Assembly (NCBI GenBank): GCA_015485355.1
Contig: WFTQ01000061.1
Coordinates: 1-40,327, forward strand
Reading direction: 5' to 3'
Length of the DNA: 40,327 nucleotides
DNA from: a bacterium
GTDB lineage: Bacteria; Calditrichota; Calditrichia; RBG-13-44-9; J042
The number at the start of each line of letters is the position of its first letter. Position 1 is the first letter of the stretch. The position numbers were made by a program, and so were the translations under genes. The notes under the pieces are model-generated. The model was not told the DNA's origin and searched no databases. It saw only the letters and a list, made by a program, of their open reading frames with translations. Shown in pieces: positions 15,344 through 26,085 of this stretch.

Positions 15344-15925
15344 TTAATGATAGGCGACAGGAAACAACGAACGGAGCACCATAACAGAAATTATTCCTCT
15401 ATTCGCTCCGCTCTTTATCCAGCCAGTGTGCCACGCCGGCAAACGCAAAGTAAAAAACATCGCTGACGCCGCCATCGCAGTGACAGTGGACCCGAGGGGC
15501 GGCGGGAAAATATTCACCGCATTAACAATCAGCATCAGGCCGATAAAGAACACCATTCCATATCTTCCCCAGAAGGTTGTTCCCTGGTTTTCGGTACCAT
15601 ACAACCTCAAACCGATTAACAGCAGGATGGCTTCCAGCAGATAAGTGGCCACGGCGTTGTTCCACAGGCCAAATCCCAATTTGGGGGAGGCATCGGTAGA
15701 TACCGGCAAGCCCGGTGTGTGGACAATTAAGTCCAGAAACCAATGGGACAGCACCGCGATGGCAACCACCAGGGCGATGCGTTTTCGGTTGCCATTCCAT
15801 TTAAACGGAAAAAAGCGGATGAAAAGATAAACTGCTGCCGTCCACGGGACGGAGGCGACCGGACTGTGCATAAAGGGCATGTATTCCAGAACAAAATGGG
15901 TGGATGCAGTGTAATGCTCCACCAT
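15344..15925 (-). pseudogene. Truncated and frameshifted multi-spanning membrane protein
   Basis: The product has four or five hydrophobic helices and the motif SHWFLDLIVHTPGLP, which is seen in a family of small integral membrane proteins sometimes labelled metal-dependent hydrolase or permease. Relative to family members I remember, the first 45 or so residues (a GHFAVG... start) are missing. The C-terminus also departs from the family after residue 157. If the A6 run at 15452-15457 had one more base, the frame would continue FAFAGVAHWLDKERSE and stop at 15399, matching the usual ending. The gene starts one base after the TorD-type stop. It is probably a decaying gene next to the transposase remnant, though a sequencing error in the run is possible. 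Confidence 0.6.
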
Positions 15926-15926
15926 T

Positions 15927-16529
15927 TTAAACCGCTCTCCTTTTAATTAAATCTACCATCAACTCGGCACAATAACTATAAAACGGATGCGTTTCCGCCT
16001 TCTTTATCTCCTTGCTTAACATGGGTATCCACCTCCGCATATGCACTCTGATAAAATTTTCCCGCATTTCAAGCCAATTTGATTCCCGGGATGTGAGATA
16101 TTGATAGGTCAAATAATAAAGGAATTCCCATTCCAGTGCCACGTGATCGGGTATTTCCTTAGGACCATCTCCTGGCTTTAAACCCGCTTCCACATATCGT
16201 TCAGCAACCCAAAAACTGGTTGCACCCATGACCTTATGGTCAGGTTCCAAATAAAAAGAAGCGTAAGGGGGGGCCAAAATTTCAAATGGCCCTAAAAACA
16301 AGCGAGCATATGCGAGAGATAATGCTTCTTTGTCATTGAGAGCAGTTTTCCAGAGATCTGCAAATTTTTGGATGGCGGGAACCCATTCTGGAGGCGCTTT
16401 TACCATTAGTTTGCGTAAATTCTCCGGTTCTTCTCCACTCATATTTAATGGAGAAGAGAACCCGCCAGAGATAAATCTTGCGAGTTCTCCCCAAACATAT
16501 TGGCTATTGAAATCATCTTTATCCAACAT
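15927..16529 (-). CDS. arrD: TorD/DmsD-family molybdoenzyme chaperone (ArrD-like)
   Basis: An all-helical protein of about 200 residues with the TorD-family pattern: ARLFLGPFEILAPPYASFYLEP in the middle and, later, PDHVALEWEFLYYLTYQYL. Such chaperones bind the twin-arginine signal of a molybdoenzyme and hold it until cofactor insertion is complete. I chose ATG 16529, which has AAGGA seven bases upstream directly after the arrB stop. ATG 16565, inside arrB and also with a purine-rich site, would add 12 residues. Its place right after arrA and arrB makes ArrA the obvious client. The symbol follows the arrCABD convention and rests on context. Confidence 0.85.
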   Translation of the reverse strand: MLDKDDFNSQYVWGELARFISGGFSSPLNMSGEEPENLRKLMVKAPPEWVPAIQKFADLWKTALNDKEALSLAYARLFLGPFEILAPPYASFYLEPDHKVMGATSFWVAERYVEAGLKPGDGPKEIPDHVALEWEFLYYLTYQYLTSRESNWLEMRENFIRVHMRRWIPMLSKEIKKAETHPFYSYCAELMVDLIKRRAV

Positions 16530-16539
16530 AGATCGTTCC

Positions 16540-17232
16540 TTAGAATTCTCCAATGTAGAGGACATTTGGCTCCGTTCCTTTCTCTGGTTTAAGTACGCGT
16601 GCATGATTTTTGGCTAATACCTTACTCACCTCGCTATTGGGATCGTTTCGATCTCCAAAAATCCGCGCATTGGCCGGGCAGGCTTCCACACATGCCGGCG
16701 GCAATCCCTTCGCCAGGCGGTGATCGCAGAAGGTGCACTTTTCCACCACTCCCCGCGGTCGAATTCCTGGTAAAGTGGCTTCCCGTTCCGGATTGTAATA
16801 TCCCACTGGAACACCCAATTTCTTCTGAATTCCAGGTTGAGATGAGGTACATTCAGGAATTAAAGGTTCCAGAAACTCTTCCCGTACCAATGGCTCTTTG
16901 TCATTAAAATAAATAACATCATAAGGGCATGCAATCCGGCATGCTGCACAACCAATACATTTACTTGGGTCGTGCATTGTGATACCATTGTCCAGCTTAT
17001 GCATCGCGGTTGTTGGGCATGCTGCTACACAGGGTGCATTGGAGCAATGGTTACACAAGGTGGGGATATATCGGTATTTCACATCCGGAAATTTACCCAC
17101 TGTTTCGATGATATGGTTGGACCAGGCGAAGCTTGCCGGTACGTTATTCTCCACCTTGCAGGCAATATCACAAGCAGAGCAACCCACGCACGCCTCTAAG
17201 TCTATTACCATGCAATATTGAACTTTACCCAT
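16540..17232 (-). CDS. arrB: Arsenate reductase iron-sulfur subunit ArrB (four [4Fe-4S])
   Basis: A 230-residue electron-transfer subunit of the DmsB/PsrB/ArrB type. Four ferredoxin-like cysteine sets are visible: C-x2-C-x2-C-x3-C at residues 15-25, then CNHCSNAPCVAACP, CIGCAACRIACP and CTFCDH...CVEACP. There is no signal peptide; partners of this type are carried across the membrane with the Tat substrate. It would pass electrons from the quinol-oxidising membrane subunit to ArrA. It starts 15 bp after arrA, with AAGGA before ATG 17232. Family members serve many substrates, so the arsenate assignment comes from the adjacent catalytic subunit. Confidence 0.9.
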   Translation of the reverse strand: MGKVQYCMVIDLEACVGCSACDIACKVENNVPASFAWSNHIIETVGKFPDVKYRYIPTLCNHCSNAPCVAACPTTAMHKLDNGITMHDPSKCIGCAACRIACPYDVIYFNDKEPLVREEFLEPLIPECTSSQPGIQKKLGVPVGYYNPEREATLPGIRPRGVVEKCTFCDHRLAKGLPPACVEACPANARIFGDRNDPNSEVSKVLAKNHARVLKPEKGTEPNVLYIGEF

Positions 17233-17246
17233 AGTTCACCGTCCTT

Positions 17247-19850
17247 TCATGCTTGTGAAATCTTTTCTATTTTAACCCGAGTCACACCGCCATGTCGAGC
17301 GGTGGAACCACTTAGCCGATCATAATCGGGTGGTAGAATCACATTGTTATTCCCACCACGAGGAATGCGTTTATGAAAATCGAACGCCGCTATACGACCA
17401 TAAGCCCAGTGTCCCTGTCCATAACATTTGGTAACCGTTCCCGGACGAACACCTTCCCATAATTTCGCTTTCACCACAATCGATCCGGTAGGCGATACAA
17501 CCTTGATCTTATCCCCATTTTTCAAGCCCAGTTTTTGAGCATCCACCGGGTTGATTTTTAACACATCATCCCAATTCTCATCACCCGGATCTGCATTCTT
17601 ATGGGCCTGATACCAGAGACAATTCGCCGATCGGCCTTCCCGATTCAGTCGGCTGCGATGTTCGAAAAAGATAAATGGGTATTCAGAAGGATCACCCCAA
17701 CGGTACGCCGGTTCATAGTGTGGAACAAAAGCCTGTTCACCTCTGGCCGTATATTGGGTGGCTTCCAAAACAGCATCCACCGTAGTATGGTGTTTCTTGG
17801 CGTGTTTTTCAAGTGCTTCTTTTAGTGTTAAGCTGTAAAATTCAAATTTACCGGTTTTCGTTTTATATTTTTCCCTAATCTTACCCGGTTTAAACCGATG
17901 GGAATTCCAAACACCTTTTTCTACAAAATCCGCCCATCCTTTCAATTTTTCGCCGTATTTACCATAATTTTTATCTGTAGGATCCCAACAGGACCGGGTG
18001 AACATTTTTACCGCTGTAACCGCAAATTCCTTGCTATTGGTAGGTGCTTTTCCAGTTTCTGGATCTTTAAACTGTTCCTTAAAATAACGATAGAGATTGT
18101 CAAAACCCTTTTGTGCAAGCTTTTCCGCGAGTAGCCATGGAATTTCCGTTTCGTCCTGTCTTACATCCCACATGGGTTCGATAACCGGTTGAGTCAGACT
18201 TGCATACCCATACAGATTTTGTTTGCTTTTCAAAAAGCTCCATTTTTCGAATAATTGATGGGCAGCCGGTAAAACAATATCTGCAAAGTGAGACATCTCA
18301 GACGCATGGGTCGTAATGTGAACGAAAAACGGAATTTTTTGCAAGGCTCTCTCCCATCGATCGGTACCGGAACAGGAGAAAGTGAAGTTTGCCCAATATG
18401 CTATGGCCACCTTTACGTCGTAGGGATCTTCCTTAATGATGGCGTCCGCGGCGTTGTTGGTTACCACGCCACCGCCGCTTTTTCCTTTTTTCAAAGAAGG
18501 AAAGTGCAAAGTGCCTCTCTGATCGATCTTGGGCTTCTTGGAGTTTTTCTTAGCCATTTCATCCTGATAAGGCTTGATATCAGGAATAGAGTAGGCGGGC
18601 ACTTTTGTCTTTTGCACCACGCCACCTTCATGGTCGGTTGATCCTACCAGTCCATTCAGAGCATGGGTTATCATCGCGGTGTATCCACCCCGGACTTGCA
18701 TGGATGCACCAGGAGACAGCCAGCTGATGGCATAAGGACCCGCTTTGGCAAAATCAGTCGCAACCCGGCGAATTTGTTCAGCGGAAACGCCACAAATCTT
18801 TTCGGCCCATTCGGGTGTCCGATCTTTCAATTCGATATTCCACCATTTCACCAGGCCGTATGTGTAATTTTCCTTAAAGCTGGATTCATCAACCGTTTTC
18901 CCGGGAACGAAAGCATTCTTTCCATCAACGAAATCTCCCACGAATTCCCGATTCCATAATCCCTCTACCAAAATCACATGTGCAATCGCAGTCGCCAGAG
19001 CACCATCCTCACCAGGGATAACGGGCAACCATTCATCTGCTTTAACGGCCGTGGCCGACAGGCGAGGATCCACAACGGCAATTTTAGCCTGTTTTTTTAC
19101 CTTTTTCCAAATACTGATGGCATGGGGAACCTGACGATTAGATGCCAGCGGATCTGCGCCCCAGCTTAATACATACCGGGTATTTTCCAGATCATAGTCT
19201 CTGTAATCCCAATACCCTTCGGTATAATAAGCGCCAAACTTCTCTGCTTCGGCACAAATTGCCGAGTGACTGATTCCGTTTGGTGATCCAAAAATCTTGG
19301 GTAGTGCAGAATAAATAATGTCCCGCATATAACTATACCGCCCCCGGAACAACACAAATTTGTGCGTTTCGTTGGAAGCTCGAAGCTCCATCATTTTTTC
19401 CGCAATCATATCCATAGCTTCCTCCCAGGTAATCGGTACGAACCTGGGATCCTCATTGCGTCCCTTCTTGGGATTGGTGCGTTTCATGGGCACCTTAATC
19501 CGATCAGGATCATATACCTGCTGAAGTGCCAGATGCGGTCGGGGACAAATTTCACCATGATTGGCTTTACTATAAGGATTTCCGCGTAATGCCACTGCCC
19601 GGCCATTGATAACTTTTACCTGAACCGGACACCAGCTGGTACATCCCTGACAGGTAGAAGCGATCCATTTACTGACCAGCTCTTTTTGAGCCTCTTCGGG
19701 AGAGGCCATCGCAAAATATTTCAACATGGGAGAACCGGCCATCAAGGCTGCCATACTTAAACCACCCATTCCCTTTAAAAATCCTCTTCGGGTCACTTTT
19801 TTGTTTACGACTTCTTCCACTTGCCCTTCTAATTTCATCTTCATAATCAT
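17247..19850 (-). CDS. arrA: Dissimilatory arsenate reductase catalytic subunit ArrA (molybdopterin)
   Basis: An 867-residue molybdopterin oxidoreductase that would reduce arsenate to arsenite in the periplasm. A twin-arginine signal (VTRRGFLKG, 19-27) precedes the [4Fe-4S] ligands Cys67, Cys70, Cys74 and Cys102. Next is RGRY, the motif I remember as ArrA-specific (ArxA has GRGWG instead). Arg171, Tyr172, His195, Cys199 (the Mo ligand), Lys204 and Tyr216 all match the Shewanella ArrA active-site residues, as I recall them, at a constant offset of six. Length also matches (about 850). The frame opens at ATG 19850, but ATG 19844 has better spacing from GGAG. Flanked by ArrC- and ArrB-type subunits. 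Polysulfide or thiosulfate reductase is the alternative, made unlikely by RGRY. Confidence 0.9.
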   Translation of the reverse strand: MIMKMKLEGQVEEVVNKKVTRRGFLKGMGGLSMAALMAGSPMLKYFAMASPEEAQKELVSKWIASTCQGCTSWCPVQVKVINGRAVALRGNPYSKANHGEICPRPHLALQQVYDPDRIKVPMKRTNPKKGRNEDPRFVPITWEEAMDMIAEKMMELRASNETHKFVLFRGRYSYMRDIIYSALPKIFGSPNGISHSAICAEAEKFGAYYTEGYWDYRDYDLENTRYVLSWGADPLASNRQVPHAISIWKKVKKQAKIAVVDPRLSATAVKADEWLPVIPGEDGALATAIAHVILVEGLWNREFVGDFVDGKNAFVPGKTVDESSFKENYTYGLVKWWNIELKDRTPEWAEKICGVSAEQIRRVATDFAKAGPYAISWLSPGASMQVRGGYTAMITHALNGLVGSTDHEGGVVQKTKVPAYSIPDIKPYQDEMAKKNSKKPKIDQRGTLHFPSLKKGKSGGGVVTNNAADAIIKEDPYDVKVAIAYWANFTFSCSGTDRWERALQKIPFFVHITTHASEMSHFADIVLPAAHQLFEKWSFLKSKQNLYGYASLTQPVIEPMWDVRQDETEIPWLLAEKLAQKGFDNLYRYFKEQFKDPETGKAPTNSKEFAVTAVKMFTRSCWDPTDKNYGKYGEKLKGWADFVEKGVWNSHRFKPGKIREKYKTKTGKFEFYSLTLKEALEKHAKKHHTTVDAVLEATQYTARGEQAFVPHYEPAYRWGDPSEYPFIFFEHRSRLNREGRSANCLWYQAHKNADPGDENWDDVLKINPVDAQKLGLKNGDKIKVVSPTGSIVVKAKLWEGVRPGTVTKCYGQGHWAYGRIAAFDFHKRIPRGGNNNVILPPDYDRLSGSTARHGGVTRVKIEKISQA

Positions 19851-20831: not shown

Positions 20832-21860
20832 TTATTTAAACACCCAGTAAAAAGTTAGCCGAGGAATAATATCAGTATCGGGTTTCACTCCTTCATCATT
20901 TTCTTCGTAAACCACCGCTTCAATATTGGGCATTAAGTGCACATTCTTAATGGGGGTGAAATCCAAACCGCCAACAAAGAAGGTGGACCTGGCGGTAGGG
21001 TCAAATGGGATATAGGCAATGGCGTCGCCTTTAGGATTGGGGTCCAACATGTTATCTACCCGCAGGAAGAAATTCAGCGTTTCGCTCATCTGGCCGGCGA
21101 TAAATACCGAAGCCATATCCAGTACTAAGTCTTCACTGCCTTCCTTCTTACGAATTTGCCGAACGTAATGCAGCCCAACACGAATGCGATCAGTCTTATA
21201 AGCAGCAAACCCCTGGGCAGTAATCTGTGATGTGACATCCAGCAGCCCATCATAGTCACCATAAAATTGGAGAATAATATTTTTGGCCGGATTAAAAGTA
21301 ATCGCCGCCAATATTTTCTTCCCCTTGTTCGTTTCCGATTTATTGCTGTTTCCATTGGCAAACATCACATGGTATTTCACAATTCCCTTTTCCACTAAAC
21401 TGCCCTTCGCAGCAATACCAAAATCGCGGGAACTGCCGAATTTCTGTAAATCTAACGGGGTTTTCTCCACCGAACGATATCCCCATACCTTTTCCAACAC
21501 CTCCCATGTGGGGGTTGGTGAAATGCCCAGAATAATCTGGTGCCGGCCGTTTTTGTATTTCAAATAAGCATCCTTTACAAAAGGAACAGCAGTAGCCTTG
21601 GTGGAAAAATCGCCCGGATGCAACATCTCCAATCGCAACCGCACGGAAAAGGCCTCGTTGAGTTTGCGGTCGTACGTAAAATAAATTCGCCGGAACCAGA
21701 AGCCGTTACGTTCTTGCAGGTCTGTTTTGTGATTTTTCAGAATGTAGTAATAATCTCCAAACATATACCCACTAAACTTACCGGCAGGCTTTTCGCCGGC
21801 CAACGACAGAGAAAAGGTAATACCGAGCAGAGCAACAACTACGTACTTAATCCGCTTCAT
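20832..21860 (-). CDS. Outer-membrane porin (phosphate-selective porin-like beta-barrel)
   Basis: A 342-residue protein with a cleavable signal peptide (MKRIKYVVVALLGITFSLSLA) followed by alternating polar and hydrophobic strands through to a C-terminal aromatic ending (TFYWVFK), as outer-membrane barrels show. Segments such as FWFRRIYFTYDRKLNEAFSVRLRLE and the motif-poor barrel resemble Porin_O_P-type proteins, which pass phosphate and similar anions. The gene sits between tatA and arrC in the arr operon, overlapping the tatA end by 14 bp. An entry or exit pore for arsenate or arsenite is a reasonable inference, since arsenate mimics phosphate. The specificity is not visible in the sequence. 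ATG 21860 follows GAGG. Confidence 0.75.
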   Translation of the reverse strand: MKRIKYVVVALLGITFSLSLAGEKPAGKFSGYMFGDYYYILKNHKTDLQERNGFWFRRIYFTYDRKLNEAFSVRLRLEMLHPGDFSTKATAVPFVKDAYLKYKNGRHQIILGISPTPTWEVLEKVWGYRSVEKTPLDLQKFGSSRDFGIAAKGSLVEKGIVKYHVMFANGNSNKSETNKGKKILAAITFNPAKNIILQFYGDYDGLLDVTSQITAQGFAAYKTDRIRVGLHYVRQIRKKEGSEDLVLDMASVFIAGQMSETLNFFLRVDNMLDPNPKGDAIAYIPFDPTARSTFFVGGLDFTPIKNVHLMPNIEAVVYEENDEGVKPDTDIIPRLTFYWVFK

Positions 21861-22035
21861 GATGATCCCTCGTGATTTGTTGAGTTTCTTGGGTTAAAGG
21901 AGAACGAATCTCTTGTTTAAATTCTCTAATACCTCGTCCCAAACTCCTGGCAATTTCAGGCAATCGCTTGGCGCCAAACAGCCCAATAATTACAATGGTA
22001 ATGACCAATATTTCCGTCGGGCCCAGACCGAACAT
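21847..22035 (-). CDS. tatA: Sec-independent translocase subunit TatA
   Basis: A 62-residue TatA/E-type protein: a short N-terminus with FGLGPTEILVI, one membrane helix, then the FGAKRLPEIARSLGRGIREFK hinge and amphipathic helix, and a charged tail. The frame is open to a TTG at 22041, but ATG 22035 has AAAGGAG six bases upstream and gives the usual start. It is the first gene behind the candidate sigma-54 element and overlaps the porin start. Co-expression with a Tat-dependent ArrA suggests it boosts export capacity when arsenate respiration is switched on. No tatC is present in the window. Confidence 0.93.
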   Translation of the reverse strand: MFGLGPTEILVITIVIIGLFGAKRLPEIARSLGRGIREFKQEIRSPLTQETQQITRDHHEAD

Positions 22036-22070
22036 GTTCAACTCCTTTTATTGATGTCAATTATTCCTTT

Positions 22071-22085
22071 TCAAGAACAATGCCA
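22071..22085 (-). promoter_or_regulatory. Candidate sigma-54 promoter of the tatA-porin-arrCAB operon
   Basis: The minus strand reads TGGCATTGTTCTTGA, compared with the consensus TGGCAC-N5-TTGC. The -24 GG and the -12 TTG are correctly spaced; the final C is A. Transcription would begin near 22060, about 25 bases before the tatA ATG and just before its ribosome site. The adjacent regulator has the GAFTGA loop that contacts sigma-54. Confidence 0.5.
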
Positions 22086-22173
22086 GGGATTCAAGAAGGA
22101 GGTTTTCGGGGTAAGGAAATAGCATTAACCAATTGTTTTACAACAAATTACAAAAAATAAATAAACACCTGAA

Positions 22174-22196
22174 ATCCAGAGGATAACCATCTGGAT
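22174..22196. promoter_or_regulatory. Inverted repeat, candidate activator site
   Basis: The arms ATCCAGA and TCTGGAT are perfectly complementary around a nine-base spacer. The centre is about 110 bases upstream of the -12 of the candidate sigma-54 promoter, the distance at which NtrC-type activators usually bind. Between the regulator stop and tatA there is nothing else coding. Confidence 0.4.
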
Positions 22197-22202
22197 ATTT
22201 TA

Positions 22203-22218
22203 AAAATCCGCGGATTTT
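22203..22218. promoter_or_regulatory. 16-bp perfect palindrome upstream of the arr operon
   Basis: AAAATCCGCGGATTTT is a perfect palindrome with no loop, so it is better suited to binding a dimeric protein than to forming an RNA hairpin. It lies about 7 bases from the neighbouring inverted repeat, and the two could form a paired activator site. Confidence 0.35.
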
Positions 22219-22271
22219 CGTGAAGCAGAAGCGAAATCTCGCTTTAATACACACGTTGTTGTCGGTAGGGA

Positions 22272-23612
22272 CTACAGGCGGTACTTTTTTAATTTGGAAC
22301 GCAAGGTGGAGGGTGGAATATGCAATAACGCAGCAGCCTGGGCTTGATTTCCTTCGCTCTGCCGGAGGGCATCCTGAATGAGTTTTTTCTCAATAGTATT
22401 TAAAATATCATCCAGGGCCATTTGACCCAAGCAGACTTCCGGAACAGAACAATCCGGTTGGCTGATTTCGAGAGGAACCATTTCAGGACGAATTTCATTT
22501 TGGCGGGCCAACAAAAGCATCCGCTCCACCACATTTTTCAGTTCCCGGACATTGCCGGGCCAGTGGTAATTCGCTAAACAATCCATGACCTGAGGGGAAA
22601 TTCGGAATTGGCGCCCACCAGTCAGTTGGTCAACAAAATAACGGTATAAAACGGGAAGATCTTCCAGGCGTTCCCGCAGCGGAGTCAGGTGAAGGGGAAA
22701 CACGTTCAGGCGATAATACAAATCTTCCCGAAATTTCCCTTCTTGAATTAACTTACGTAAATCGGCCTTGGTAGAGGCGATGATCCGCACATCCACGGGG
22801 ATTGGTTGATTGCTCCCCACCCGTTCAATTTCTTTTTCTTGAAGTACCCGCAGCAACTTGACCTGCAGTTCCAGGGGGATATCGTCGATATCATCCAGGT
22901 AGATGGTACCCCCATCGGCCTGTTCAAAACGGCCAATCCGTTCCTTTATGGCACCGGTAAACGCCCCCTTTTCGTGTCCAAATAATTCACTTTCAAACAC
23001 CTCCTGCGCCAGAATTGCGCAACTTACTTTAACCAGCGGCTTGTCCTTCCGGGGGCTATTGTAATGGATGATATTGGCGACCAATTCTTTTCCGGTTCCG
23101 GTTTCCCCGGTAATTAACACGGAAGCATCGGACGCTGCGACGGTTCGAATCATTTCCTTAATTTGGCGCGCCGCCGGGCTATCCCCAACAAATGCTTCAA
23201 TGGGATAATGCCTGGAAAGTTGTTTTTTAAGCTGAATATTTTCGTTTTTTATCGACTGCAACTCCTTTAACCGTTGCAAGATCAATAACAATTCATCGCT
23301 GTGAAACGGTTTGGTGAGGTAATCATAGGCGCCTTTTTTCATGGCCTCCACGGCCGAATCCACTGAGCCGTAAGCCGTCATCATAATGACTGTTATGTGT
23401 GGGAATTTGGATTTTATCCGTTCCAGAAGGGTCATACCGTCCATACCCGGCATTTTCATATCGGTCAGCACCACATCAACCGGTTGTTTTTGCAAGGTTT
23501 GCCAGGCTTCATTCCCATCGACAAACCCCACCGCCCGGTATCCGGCATCGGTTAGCTCATCCACCAAAGAAACCCGTAAAATCTGTTCATCTTCCACCAC
23601 AAAAATGGTCAT
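22272..23612 (-). CDS. arrR: NtrC-family sigma-54-dependent response regulator (ArrR-like)
   Basis: A 446-residue regulator with three domains. The receiver has phospho-acceptor Asp51 and the TDMKMPGMDG motif. The AAA+ domain has Walker A GETGTGKE at 169-176, GAFTGA at 216-221 and an arginine-finger region. A Fis-type helix-turn-helix closes the protein at about 421-446. It would activate sigma-54 promoters after phosphorylation by the kinase encoded just upstream, with which it shares an ATGA overlap. The next operon downstream starts with tatA and has a sigma-54-like element, so the arr genes are the likely target. The symbol is by context. Confidence 0.9.
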   Translation of the reverse strand: MTIFVVEDEQILRVSLVDELTDAGYRAVGFVDGNEAWQTLQKQPVDVVLTDMKMPGMDGMTLLERIKSKFPHITVIMMTAYGSVDSAVEAMKKGAYDYLTKPFHSDELLLILQRLKELQSIKNENIQLKKQLSRHYPIEAFVGDSPAARQIKEMIRTVAASDASVLITGETGTGKELVANIIHYNSPRKDKPLVKVSCAILAQEVFESELFGHEKGAFTGAIKERIGRFEQADGGTIYLDDIDDIPLELQVKLLRVLQEKEIERVGSNQPIPVDVRIIASTKADLRKLIQEGKFREDLYYRLNVFPLHLTPLRERLEDLPVLYRYFVDQLTGGRQFRISPQVMDCLANYHWPGNVRELKNVVERMLLLARQNEIRPEMVPLEISQPDCSVPEVCLGQMALDDILNTIEKKLIQDALRQSEGNQAQAAALLHIPPSTLRSKLKKYRL

Positions 23613-25168
23613 GGTCTATCCCCTACCTTTTGATTTCGCACCGATTTTTCGCCCCGACTGGATAATTGGGGAGAGAGTGGTAACGTAATGGAAAACGTCG
23701 TGCCCCGATTCAATTCACTGCTAACTGAAATATTTCCGCCATGGGCCACGATGATGTTGTAACAGACTGACAGCCCCATCCCCGTTCCTTTGCCGATGTC
23801 CTTGGTTGTATAAAAGGGGTCGAAAATTTTGGTTAAATTTTCCTGAGGGATTCCTACCCCGGAATCTTTCAGGAAGATTTCCAACGTATTCTGCTTATGT
23901 TTTACGCCAATATAAATACTTTTGGAAGCCGCCTGGGATTGTAAAAACCGCTCTTCAATGGCATCAATGGCATTGAGCAATAAATTCACCATTACCTGCT
24001 CCAGATGATGCCGACTGGCATAGATGGAGGGTACATTTGGCGGAACCTCTTTTGTAATGGCAATGCGGTGTTTTTCCAGTTTGTAGGCGACCAAAAGCAG
24101 CGCCGTTTCGATAACCTCTTCAATATTGACCGGAGCAAAATCCATCTCCCGGGGACGGGCATAATCCAGTAAACTGCGCACCACCGTGGCGATCCGGTTG
24201 GTGGCCTCCTCCATCAGCTCCAGGTACATTTTAGTCTGCTCCACATTCTGCGGATTCTGTTTTAACCGCCGCAGGCAATTTTGTATTCCTGCAATGGGAT
24301 TATTGATCTCATGCGCCAACCCGGCCGAAAGGGTGCCCAGGGAGGCCAGCTTTTCGGATTGCACCAATTGCGCGTAGGCTGCTTCCAGCTCCTGATGGGC
24401 ATTTTCAAGCCGCTCAATCATGGCGTTAAATTTTTCCGTTAATACATCCAATTCATCGGTCGCACGGAAAACCATGGGAAATTTTCCGAATAATTTTTCC
24501 CGAATCCGCACCCAGGGATGCTTCTTGTAACGGAGTGAATCCAGGTCAATGCCTTCGGCAATTTCACTAATGGAACGAATGGGATGCGTGATGACGTGGG
24601 AGAAAAATAACGCACCCAATATGCCAAATACCAGAAAAATGAAAACCATCATTAACAATTGATGCATGGTAGTATTTACATTCTCCATAAGCGAATTTTC
24701 ACGAATACCAACCCGAACCACTCCTATTTCCGGTGTTAAGATAGGAACCGCAATATCCCGAATTATCCAATTCGGTTGCTCTACAATTTCCAACAAACGA
24801 ATGCTTTCCGGTTGATTTTCGGCCAAATGATTGGCATGTAGAATACCGCTAGGTACAGTGTCTGTAAAATTGTGGATAATGATGTTATTTTGTTTATCCC
24901 ACACAAAAACGTATGCAATAGAAGAATCAATTTTTACAATGTCTTCAATCCAGCTTTGAATAGCAATGTAATCCTCATACAACAAGGGATTTACAGATAA
25001 AGAAGCCAATTGCTGGGCAATAAAAATTCCCCGTTTTTCAGACTCTGCCCCCAGGGAACGAGTAATACTTTGGTTTAAAATATATAGATTGATGGAACCG
25101 AATAAAGCAACAATAATGACTATGGCAATTGTAAATTTCCAGAATAATGGTAAATGAATCCGTTTCAT
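23609..25168 (-). CDS. arrS: Membrane sensor histidine kinase (ArrS-like)
   Basis: A 519-residue kinase with a first membrane helix (about 11-31), a periplasmic sensing region (about 35-168), a second helix (about 171-192), a HAMP-type linker and a coiled coil. The dimerisation domain carries His286 in GLAHEINNPIAGIQN. The ATPase part has NLLLNAIDA, DSGVGIPQ and GKGTGMGLSV. The subclass resembles NtrB/ZraS-type partners of sigma-54 activators. It overlaps both neighbours by ATGA, so binding lipoprotein, kinase and regulator are one transcription unit. It may read the state of the binding protein through its periplasmic domain; that is inferred from known three-component arsenic sensors. Confidence 0.9.
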   Translation of the reverse strand: MKRIHLPLFWKFTIAIVIIVALFGSINLYILNQSITRSLGAESEKRGIFIAQQLASLSVNPLLYEDYIAIQSWIEDIVKIDSSIAYVFVWDKQNNIIIHNFTDTVPSGILHANHLAENQPESIRLLEIVEQPNWIIRDIAVPILTPEIGVVRVGIRENSLMENVNTTMHQLLMMVFIFLVFGILGALFFSHVITHPIRSISEIAEGIDLDSLRYKKHPWVRIREKLFGKFPMVFRATDELDVLTEKFNAMIERLENAHQELEAAYAQLVQSEKLASLGTLSAGLAHEINNPIAGIQNCLRRLKQNPQNVEQTKMYLELMEEATNRIATVVRSLLDYARPREMDFAPVNIEEVIETALLLVAYKLEKHRIAITKEVPPNVPSIYASRHHLEQVMVNLLLNAIDAIEERFLQSQAASKSIYIGVKHKQNTLEIFLKDSGVGIPQENLTKIFDPFYTTKDIGKGTGMGLSVCYNIIVAHGGNISVSSELNRGTTFSITLPLSPQLSSRGEKSVRNQKVGDRP

Positions 25169-26085
25169 GGAACAGCCATTCTCTTATTCCTGAGTATACC
25201 AGAATAATTCACCGTATCCCCACGAATAAACCGGTCAATATTCAGCTGGGACAAAATCTGTTGGCCTTTCGAATCGCGGTGTAAATTGAGAAATACAGTT
25301 TGTAATTGTTCCTTTAATTTCGGGTTTAACCCTCTGGGCACTACAATGGGAGGCATACCAAACGGCTCAGATTTTTCAATCACCCGTAAATTTTCCACCA
25401 GTATGGGATTATTCTTTGCCAGATAATCAAAAATTAATCCATCCACACTGGCCCCATCCACCAGTTTTCGGGCTACGGCCTGAATGGAATAATCATGGGC
25501 ATAAGTAAAAATGGTTTTACTGAAGAAGCGGTGCAAGGTAAACCCCAATTCTTTAACCCGTCGTAACGGATAATAATATCCCGTGTTCGAAAGGGGATCC
25601 GTCAGCGCAAAGCGTCTATTTTTTAAATCAATCAACTGGCGATACGGGGAATCCTTATGGACAATGATGTAAGCCTGATAATATGCTTTATTATTAATCA
25701 CCGGGACGGCAATAATTTCCATATACCCTTCCGGAAGGGCATACACATAGGCTCCGGAACAGATAAAGGCAATATCCACCACCGCTTTCTTAAGGAGTTC
25801 ATTTACCTCCTTGTAACTCTTCCGTTGTTTAAATTGAATAGGCCGACCTAATTGTTGCGAGATGTATTCTACCAGTTTTTCGTAATAAATATAGGTCTCT
25901 TTAGGCGAGGTCATTGCCGAAATAGCCAGACTAATCGGTTCGTTGAAATCCGAAGGTAAGGTATGTCGTTTTAGGGTATCGGATGAATGAAGGGAGATTC
26001 TGACGACAGGCCTATCTTTTTGCTGTGCCCCCTCGCATGCAAAAAATACAACAACAAACAACAATATGTAAAAGAACCGAGCCAT
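25165..26085 (-). CDS. arrT: PhnD-family substrate-binding lipoprotein (ArrT/AioX-like sensor)
   Basis: A 306-residue lipoprotein: a hydrophobic N-terminus ends in a lipobox with Cys17 (FFAC). The rest is a PhnD-type periplasmic binding fold: an opening segment EPISLAISAMTSPKETYIYYEKL, then DIAFICSGAYVYA, DLKNRRFALTDPLSNTGYYYP and a late FGMPPIVVPRGL. There is no transporter gene beside it; it is coupled by ATGA to a kinase, so it probably serves sensing. Cys109 lies in the ligand-facing FICSG segment. In AioX, a related arsenite sensor, a Cys near 108 binds the oxyanion (recalled), which makes arsenite or arsenate recognition plausible here. The symbol is by context. Confidence 0.8.
   Translation of the reverse strand: MARFFYILLFVVVFFACEGAQQKDRPVVRISLHSSDTLKRHTLPSDFNEPISLAISAMTSPKETYIYYEKLVEYISQQLGRPIQFKQRKSYKEVNELLKKAVVDIAFICSGAYVYALPEGYMEIIAVPVINNKAYYQAYIIVHKDSPYRQLIDLKNRRFALTDPLSNTGYYYPLRRVKELGFTLHRFFSKTIFTYAHDYSIQAVARKLVDGASVDGLIFDYLAKNNPILVENLRVIEKSEPFGMPPIVVPRGLNPKLKEQLQTVFLNLHRDSKGQQILSQLNIDRFIRGDTVNYSGILRNKRMAVP

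Follow-up and report, generated by a model that had tools for sequence, protein, structure and literature searches.

In Rhizobium NT-26 and Agrobacterium, the genes for AioXSR lie beside aioBA, the operon for arsenite oxidase. The RpoN promoter of NT-26 aioBA reads TGGCACAACGATTGCA (PMC6011840), and the site of ArxR has been modelled on the NT-26 AioR site as gtaacaattcaagc (PMC5908839). In Chrysiogenes arsenatis, which has ArrXSR and arrAB, ArrX has an affinity of about 1 uM for arsenate and one 150 times weaker for phosphate; the ArrR of this species is of CitB/FixJ type without an AAA+ domain, and an RpoN promoter was not detected before arrAB (PMC5908839). The epsilonproteobacterial ArrR is of AtoC type (PMC5908839). 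At atoDAEB, the operator of Escherichia coli AtoC consists of two palindromic sites of 20 bp, each with an AAATTT core; separated by 21 bp, they occupy positions -184 to -144 of the sigma-54 promoter (PMC3118216).

The locus and its arr-like operon

The window, that is, the whole stretch of 40,327 nt analysed here, carries sensor, kinase, regulator, tatA, porin, NrfD, ArrA-like, ArrB-like and TorD-type genes, all on the minus strand, with a 236-bp gap between the regulator gene and tatA:

25165..26085, minus strand: PhnD-family periplasmic sensor, closest solved structure ArrX
23609..25168, minus strand: sensor histidine kinase in the ArrS/AioS position
22272..23612, minus strand: NtrC/AtoC-type response regulator, ArrR/AioR-like, with receiver, GAFTGA AAA+ domain and Fis-type HTH
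22042..22049, minus strand: ribosome-binding site AAAAGGAG ahead of the tatA ATG, as read from the sequence, with the same letters in the sister locus L001
21847..22035, minus strand: tatA, first gene of the controlled operon
20832..21860, minus strand: probable outer-membrane porin, without a family match, 83% identical in L001
19866..20816, minus strand: NrfD-family membrane subunit in the ArrC position
17247..19850, minus strand: ArrA-like molybdoenzyme, matching the NCBIfam ArrA model and solved ArrA
16540..17232, minus strand: ArrB-like iron-sulphur subunit, 298 bits against a cut-off of 450
15927..16604, minus strand: TorD-family chaperone

A weakly matching YdjM-like membrane protein (window 15344-15925) lies at the operon end and closely overlaps its neighbours.

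Compared with solved structures, the sensor matched ArrX (E 9e-51, 38% identity) and AioX (E 3e-33, 30%). A sensor of the AioX/ArrX subfamily is thus clustered with a kinase and a regulator beside an ArrA-like enzyme, the arrangement of a three-component system. The regulator combines a Pfam receiver, an AAA+ domain and a Fis-type HTH, as expected of the NtrC/AtoC type, and its best NCBIfam match is AtoC, at a score below the cut-off of that model. The GAFTGA motif that the first-pass annotation had read in it is present. AAA+ regulators with GAFTGA are known to work from sites upstream of the promoter and on RpoN polymerase alone.

The molybdoenzyme scored 1169 bits with the ArrA model of NCBIfam. 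No other model came near this, but the score is short of the cut-off of 1600; among solved enzymes, ArrA reached 1023 bits and the next 166. Because the best model is ArrA but the score is below its cut-off, 'ArrA-like' is the accurate name. Judged by these matches, the operon is arr-like, with ArrA, ArrB, an NrfD-type subunit, a TorD chaperone, TatA and a porin, and it probably serves arsenate respiration.

Predicted promoter and operators ahead of tatA

The gap between the regulator gene and tatA holds the following features:

22230..22243, minus strand: predicted activator site 1, AGCGAGATTTCGCT, centred some 178 bp upstream of the predicted start
22209..22222, minus strand: predicted activator site 2, CACGAAAATCCGCG, centre about 157 bp before the predicted start
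22203..22218, no strand assigned: perfect 16-bp palindrome AAAATCCGCGGATTTT, off register with activator site 2
22174..22196, no strand assigned: 7-bp inverted repeat ATCCAGA-N9-TCTGGAT, of chance-level frequency
22148..22191, minus strand: 44-bp block identical in the window and its sister L001, between operators and promoter
22071..22085, minus strand: -24/-12 element TGGCATTGTTCTTGA, 36 bp ahead of the tatA ATG (22035)

A sigma-54 element with -24/-12 spacing had been proposed just before tatA, and this proposal is supported: the element is present at 22085-22071, it is kept in relatives, and RpoN is encoded in the genome (Sigma54_DBD match, E 1.1e-60). TGGCATTGTTCTTGA reads TGGCAT-N5-TTGA, with GG at -24, correct spacing and GA as the -12 dinucleotide, TTGA replacing TTGC, and places the predicted transcription start at about 22059. 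The form TGGCAY-N5-TTG occurs twice in the whole window on both strands, TGGCATTGTTCTTGA being one of the two matches. At the matching place it was found in 13 of 22 promoter regions (window and sister included), against 0.01 expected from mononucleotide shuffles, and in none of nine control regions. The sister carries an unchanged copy of TGGCATTGTTCTTGA, and other groups have the same form as TGGCATTTCCATTGCT (L004), TGGCATTTCAATTGCT (L012), TGGCATTTCTTTTGCA (L128) and TGGCATGGCCCTTGCC (L141); across the 21 listed elements, the -12 dinucleotide is GC in 11 and GA in four.

Side-by-side reading of the intergenic regions suggested a repeated palindrome, and this was put to the test. When we compared about 20 homologous promoters, whose genomes are Calditrichota-like, ignavibacterial or of Bacteroidota, a 14-bp palindrome emerged with a consensus close to AACGAAAWTTCGTT, present in tandem copies centred 20-21 bp apart; in the alignment, the C and G of its CG ends are invariant or nearly so. 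To guard against circularity, we scored each locus with a 14-bp palindromic matrix retrained after its own clade, itself included, had been left out, and let the pair spacing vary freely (12-40); the matrix seeds were picked by eye, a caveat on the training set, though not on the whole-genome scan and the further tests described after it. The best-pair spacing in the 20 promoters was 20 bp in 14, 21 bp in three (the window, its sister and L129), 19 bp in two and 23 bp in one, whereas spacings were scattered in the control regions, where the regulator has no target behind it. A matrix built without window and sister gave the best pair of the window promoter a score of 30.2, where shuffles averaged 5.0 (sd 4.4) and peaked at 18.6. 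Across the 40 kb this pair ranked first by a clear distance, at 26.8 against 13.6 for the runner-up. A motif-free statistic, in which the best palindrome pair was set against shuffles, was underpowered for individual loci. Sites 1 and 2, both assigned by the leave-one-clade-out matrix and alignment A1, have their centres 21 bp apart; site 2 is imperfect (CGAAAATCCG).

When a sequence-only model was run over 30 whole genomes, the window site was the sole match in its genome (E 0.004, with site 2 itself included in the model). The scan also recovered sites that had not been used in model building, in L196, L197, L198 and L199, each with a sigma-54 element 88-106 bp beyond the operator. For the first three of these the element is TGGCATATGYYTTG, 88-91 bp past the operator, and the sites precede an outer-membrane-like gene, which either converges on the regulator gene or lies separate from it. 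In these Bacteroidota loci (L196:4037-4068, L197:3997-4028 and L198:4024-4055), operator and element stand ahead of a gene for an outer-membrane-like protein of 440-450 aa, probably a further target of the ArrX-type regulator family. In L199, the operator stands in the gap that separates a related but divergent sensor-kinase-regulator cluster from its neighbour, and TGGCACATTTCTTGTA lies 106 bp past it; the sensor there is only 20% identical, and the operator type therefore reaches beyond the ArrX group. The gene set neighbouring this site (L199:4725-4760, on the single contig of a 4.98-Mb genome from the same class) includes a TctC-like transporter protein.

Where regulator gene and tatA lie apart, in L130 and L132, operator and promoter accompany tatA. 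Among 95 loci with more distant regulators, the pair stands beside a sigma-54 element only in ArrX-type ones, and the carriers of the pair share the recognition helix P-x-STL[RK][ST]K, as judged by comparing helices by eye. No comparable pair was found elsewhere in the 40-kb window, including before the sensor gene, where it would have pointed to autoregulation; in the open-access literature we found no report of a CGAAAWTTCG pair as a regulator site. The comparison argues strongly that this conserved pair, missed by the first-pass annotation, represents the real candidate landing sites. At 22209-22243, it would supply the tandem palindromic upstream activator sites of an NtrC/AtoC-type system. 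Activator sites upstream of the sigma-54 promoter had indeed been anticipated; they are predicted about 150-180 bp before the start, at neither of the palindromes named for that role.

Between operators and promoter, the 44-bp block shared with the sister is more conserved than the third codon positions of the regulator gene (74% identical between window and L001; overall intergenic identity is 83%). It occurs once per genome, and the only further copy in the genome or in the searched relatives is the orthologous one of the sister; the block could serve to bend the DNA or to bind a second factor. A 21-codon ORF from an ATG in the block was not treated as a gene, because its first codons are identical even at silent positions while later codons drift. 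The promoter and operator comparisons indicate a genuine control region dependent on sigma-54, but only partly as first drawn.

Enzymes behind the switch in relatives

The sister locus L001, from the same family of organisms, encodes a sensor 81%, a kinase 88% and a regulator 93% identical to those of the window. It keeps the promoter, tatA (87%) and the porin (83%), followed by TtrB-like and NrfD genes, without arr. A second contig of the sister genome overlaps the NrfD gene by 369 bp at 94.6% identity and continues into a TtrA-like gene; this contig could represent a variant strain or another copy. L001:4651-7907 and L204 thus hold a TtrB/NrfD/TtrA-like operon where the window has arr genes. 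Since the sister module joins a conserved sensor and promoter to a TtrA-like operon, the enzyme behind the control block appears to have been exchanged.

Operons of other relatives encode TtrA-like enzymes (L004, L012, L130, L141 and L144), a PhsA-like enzyme (L128) or multihaem cytochromes; scores of the TtrA-like genes fall well short of the TtrA cut-off. One relative, L137, has an ArrA-like enzyme. This second ArrA-like enzyme (L137:4281-7121, 987 bits) is encoded directly behind such a regulator, its promoter has an operator pair and a CGGCAT-type element, and the sensor stretch DPLSFSG is ArrX-like. The window sensor has the stretches DPLSNTG and FTYAHDYSIQAV, which are those of Ttr/Phs-linked sensors; DPLSNTG is unlike the DPMSFSG of Chrysiogenes ArrX and the DPLSFSG of the ArrA-linked L137 sensor. 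That the same switch precedes different respiratory enzymes in relatives weakens the case for arsenate as the signal. The label 'arsenic-responsive', which derives from the ArrA-like enzyme and the ArrX-like sensor, is plausible but provisional.

Competing explanations and comparison with known systems

The first drawing had the regulator bind at the 16-bp palindrome and at the 7-bp inverted repeat with its nine-base spacer. Both exist, and AAAATCCGCGGATTTT is the sole perfect 16-bp palindrome in the 40 kb, but it covers ten bases of site 2 and runs on past it, and its symmetry is lost already in the sister (one mismatch) and elsewhere (3-7 mismatches). The 7-bp repeat also has one mismatch in the sister and 4-6 elsewhere, being absent beyond L001, and the window-wide count of inverted repeats of this kind (spacer 0-20) predicts 0.77 for every 236 bp. 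The two have no common motif, whereas the conserved pair has one. Both were rejected as operators on conservation and frequency, and we regard that role as highly improbable. Just as improbable, in our estimate, is that the inverted repeats serve the regulator operon as terminators or leader hairpins, with tatA transcribed by read-through or from a sigma-70 promoter. The 7-bp repeat does fold well as RNA (-11 kcal/mol, z -3.0), the base altered in L001 would still pair, as G-U, and one weak sigma-70-like match lies on the same strand. However, sigma-70-like matches in the region are at chance number (2 against 1.0 expected from shuffles), no terminator-like site was found (such sites are no commoner there than in shuffles), and both a sigma-70 promoter and an intrinsic terminator were rejected at this chance level; 21900-22400 yielded no Rfam element. 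The sigma-54 element and the operators are conserved where terminators are not, and where tatA and the regulator gene are separated, as in L130 and L132, the promoter is found at tatA.

A different signal for the same switch is a more substantial possibility, to which we give somewhat less than even weight. The sensor would detect another oxyanion, such as tetrathionate, thiosulphate or a phosphate-like anion, and the arr enzyme would have been placed behind a module that drives tetrathionate- or thiosulphate-reductase-like operons in relatives. The sister locus, with its overlapping contig, and the TtrA-like, PhsA-like or multihaem-cytochrome genes of further relatives speak for this, as do DPLSNTG and FTYAHDYSIQAV, shared with Ttr/Phs-linked sensors and unlike ArrX or L137. 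Against it, the sensor comes nearest to ArrX among solved proteins, and the ArrX of Chrysiogenes binds arsenate (PMC5908839); the operon mates are arr genes. The pocket stretches are putative specificity determinants only, and the TtrA-like genes fall so far below the TtrA cut-off that their own substrate is equally uncertain. Tentatively, sensor, promoter, tatA and porin could form a transferable control cassette in which the enzyme is exchanged; either its ligand would be broader than arsenate, or the TtrA-like enzymes would use an arsenic-like oxyanion.

We favour, with considerable confidence, a sigma-54-dependent promoter of the tatA-porin-arrCABD-like operon, predicted to be switched on by the adjacent three-component system. 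The PhnD/ArrX-like periplasmic protein would bind an oxyanion, probably arsenate, and the kinase, judging from its domains, would phosphorylate the NtrC-type regulator. Phosphorylated dimers would then bind the two tandem CGAAAWTTCG palindromes at 22209-22243, sites for which the comparative evidence is strong; with two helical turns between them, both dimers would sit on the same side of the helix. As known for the GAFTGA family, the assembled AAA+ ring would remodel RpoN polymerase at the -24/-12 element (22085-22071), and transcription would begin near 22059. What speaks against this reading is the GA at -12, the imperfect site 2, the ArrA score short of its cut-off and the sister operon, which is not arr despite a sensor, kinase and regulator 81-93% identical. 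Comparison among relatives shows the predicted promoter, the operators and the linkage of both to the regulator type. The first-pass view that the parts form one switch thus survives for the promoter, the adjacent regulator and the existence of upstream sites, and fails for either palindrome.

This provides a concrete predicted operator and promoter for an arr-type operon; the published Chrysiogenes case is without a detected RpoN promoter and has another regulator class. Used for searching, two copies of CGAAAWTTCG at a distance of 20-21 bp followed by TGGCAY-N5-TTG find candidate targets of the sensor family across several phyla, including genes that are not beside the regulator. It also raises the question of which ligand is read by a sensor that is kept almost unchanged while the controlled reductase is swapped.

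Like the window, ArrXSR/arrAB of Chrysiogenes has an ArrX-like sensor and a kinase beside arr genes, but the window regulator is of NtrC/AtoC type and has a sigma-54 promoter. The operons behind homologous modules in relatives, TtrB-NrfD-TtrA-like or PhsA-like, recall TtrSR/ttr and Phs-type systems, although the Ttr-like enzymes score far below the TtrA cut-off; TtrSR has another type of regulator and is not known to use sigma-54. AioXSR/aioBA shares with the window a PhnD-family sensor, a kinase and a sigma-54-dependent regulator beside a molybdoenzyme operon, but its enzyme is arsenite oxidase and not ArrA-like, and the CGAAAWTTCG pairs of the window are unlike gtaacaattcaagc, so that the operator is not of the AioR/ArxR kind. 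The AtoC operator of E. coli has nearly the layout of the window pair, with flanks GCTATGCAG...TGCACA in place of CG...CG and a different signal and target operon. In its overall logic the predicted switch resembles AioXSR, and in its layout it comes close to the AtoC operator.
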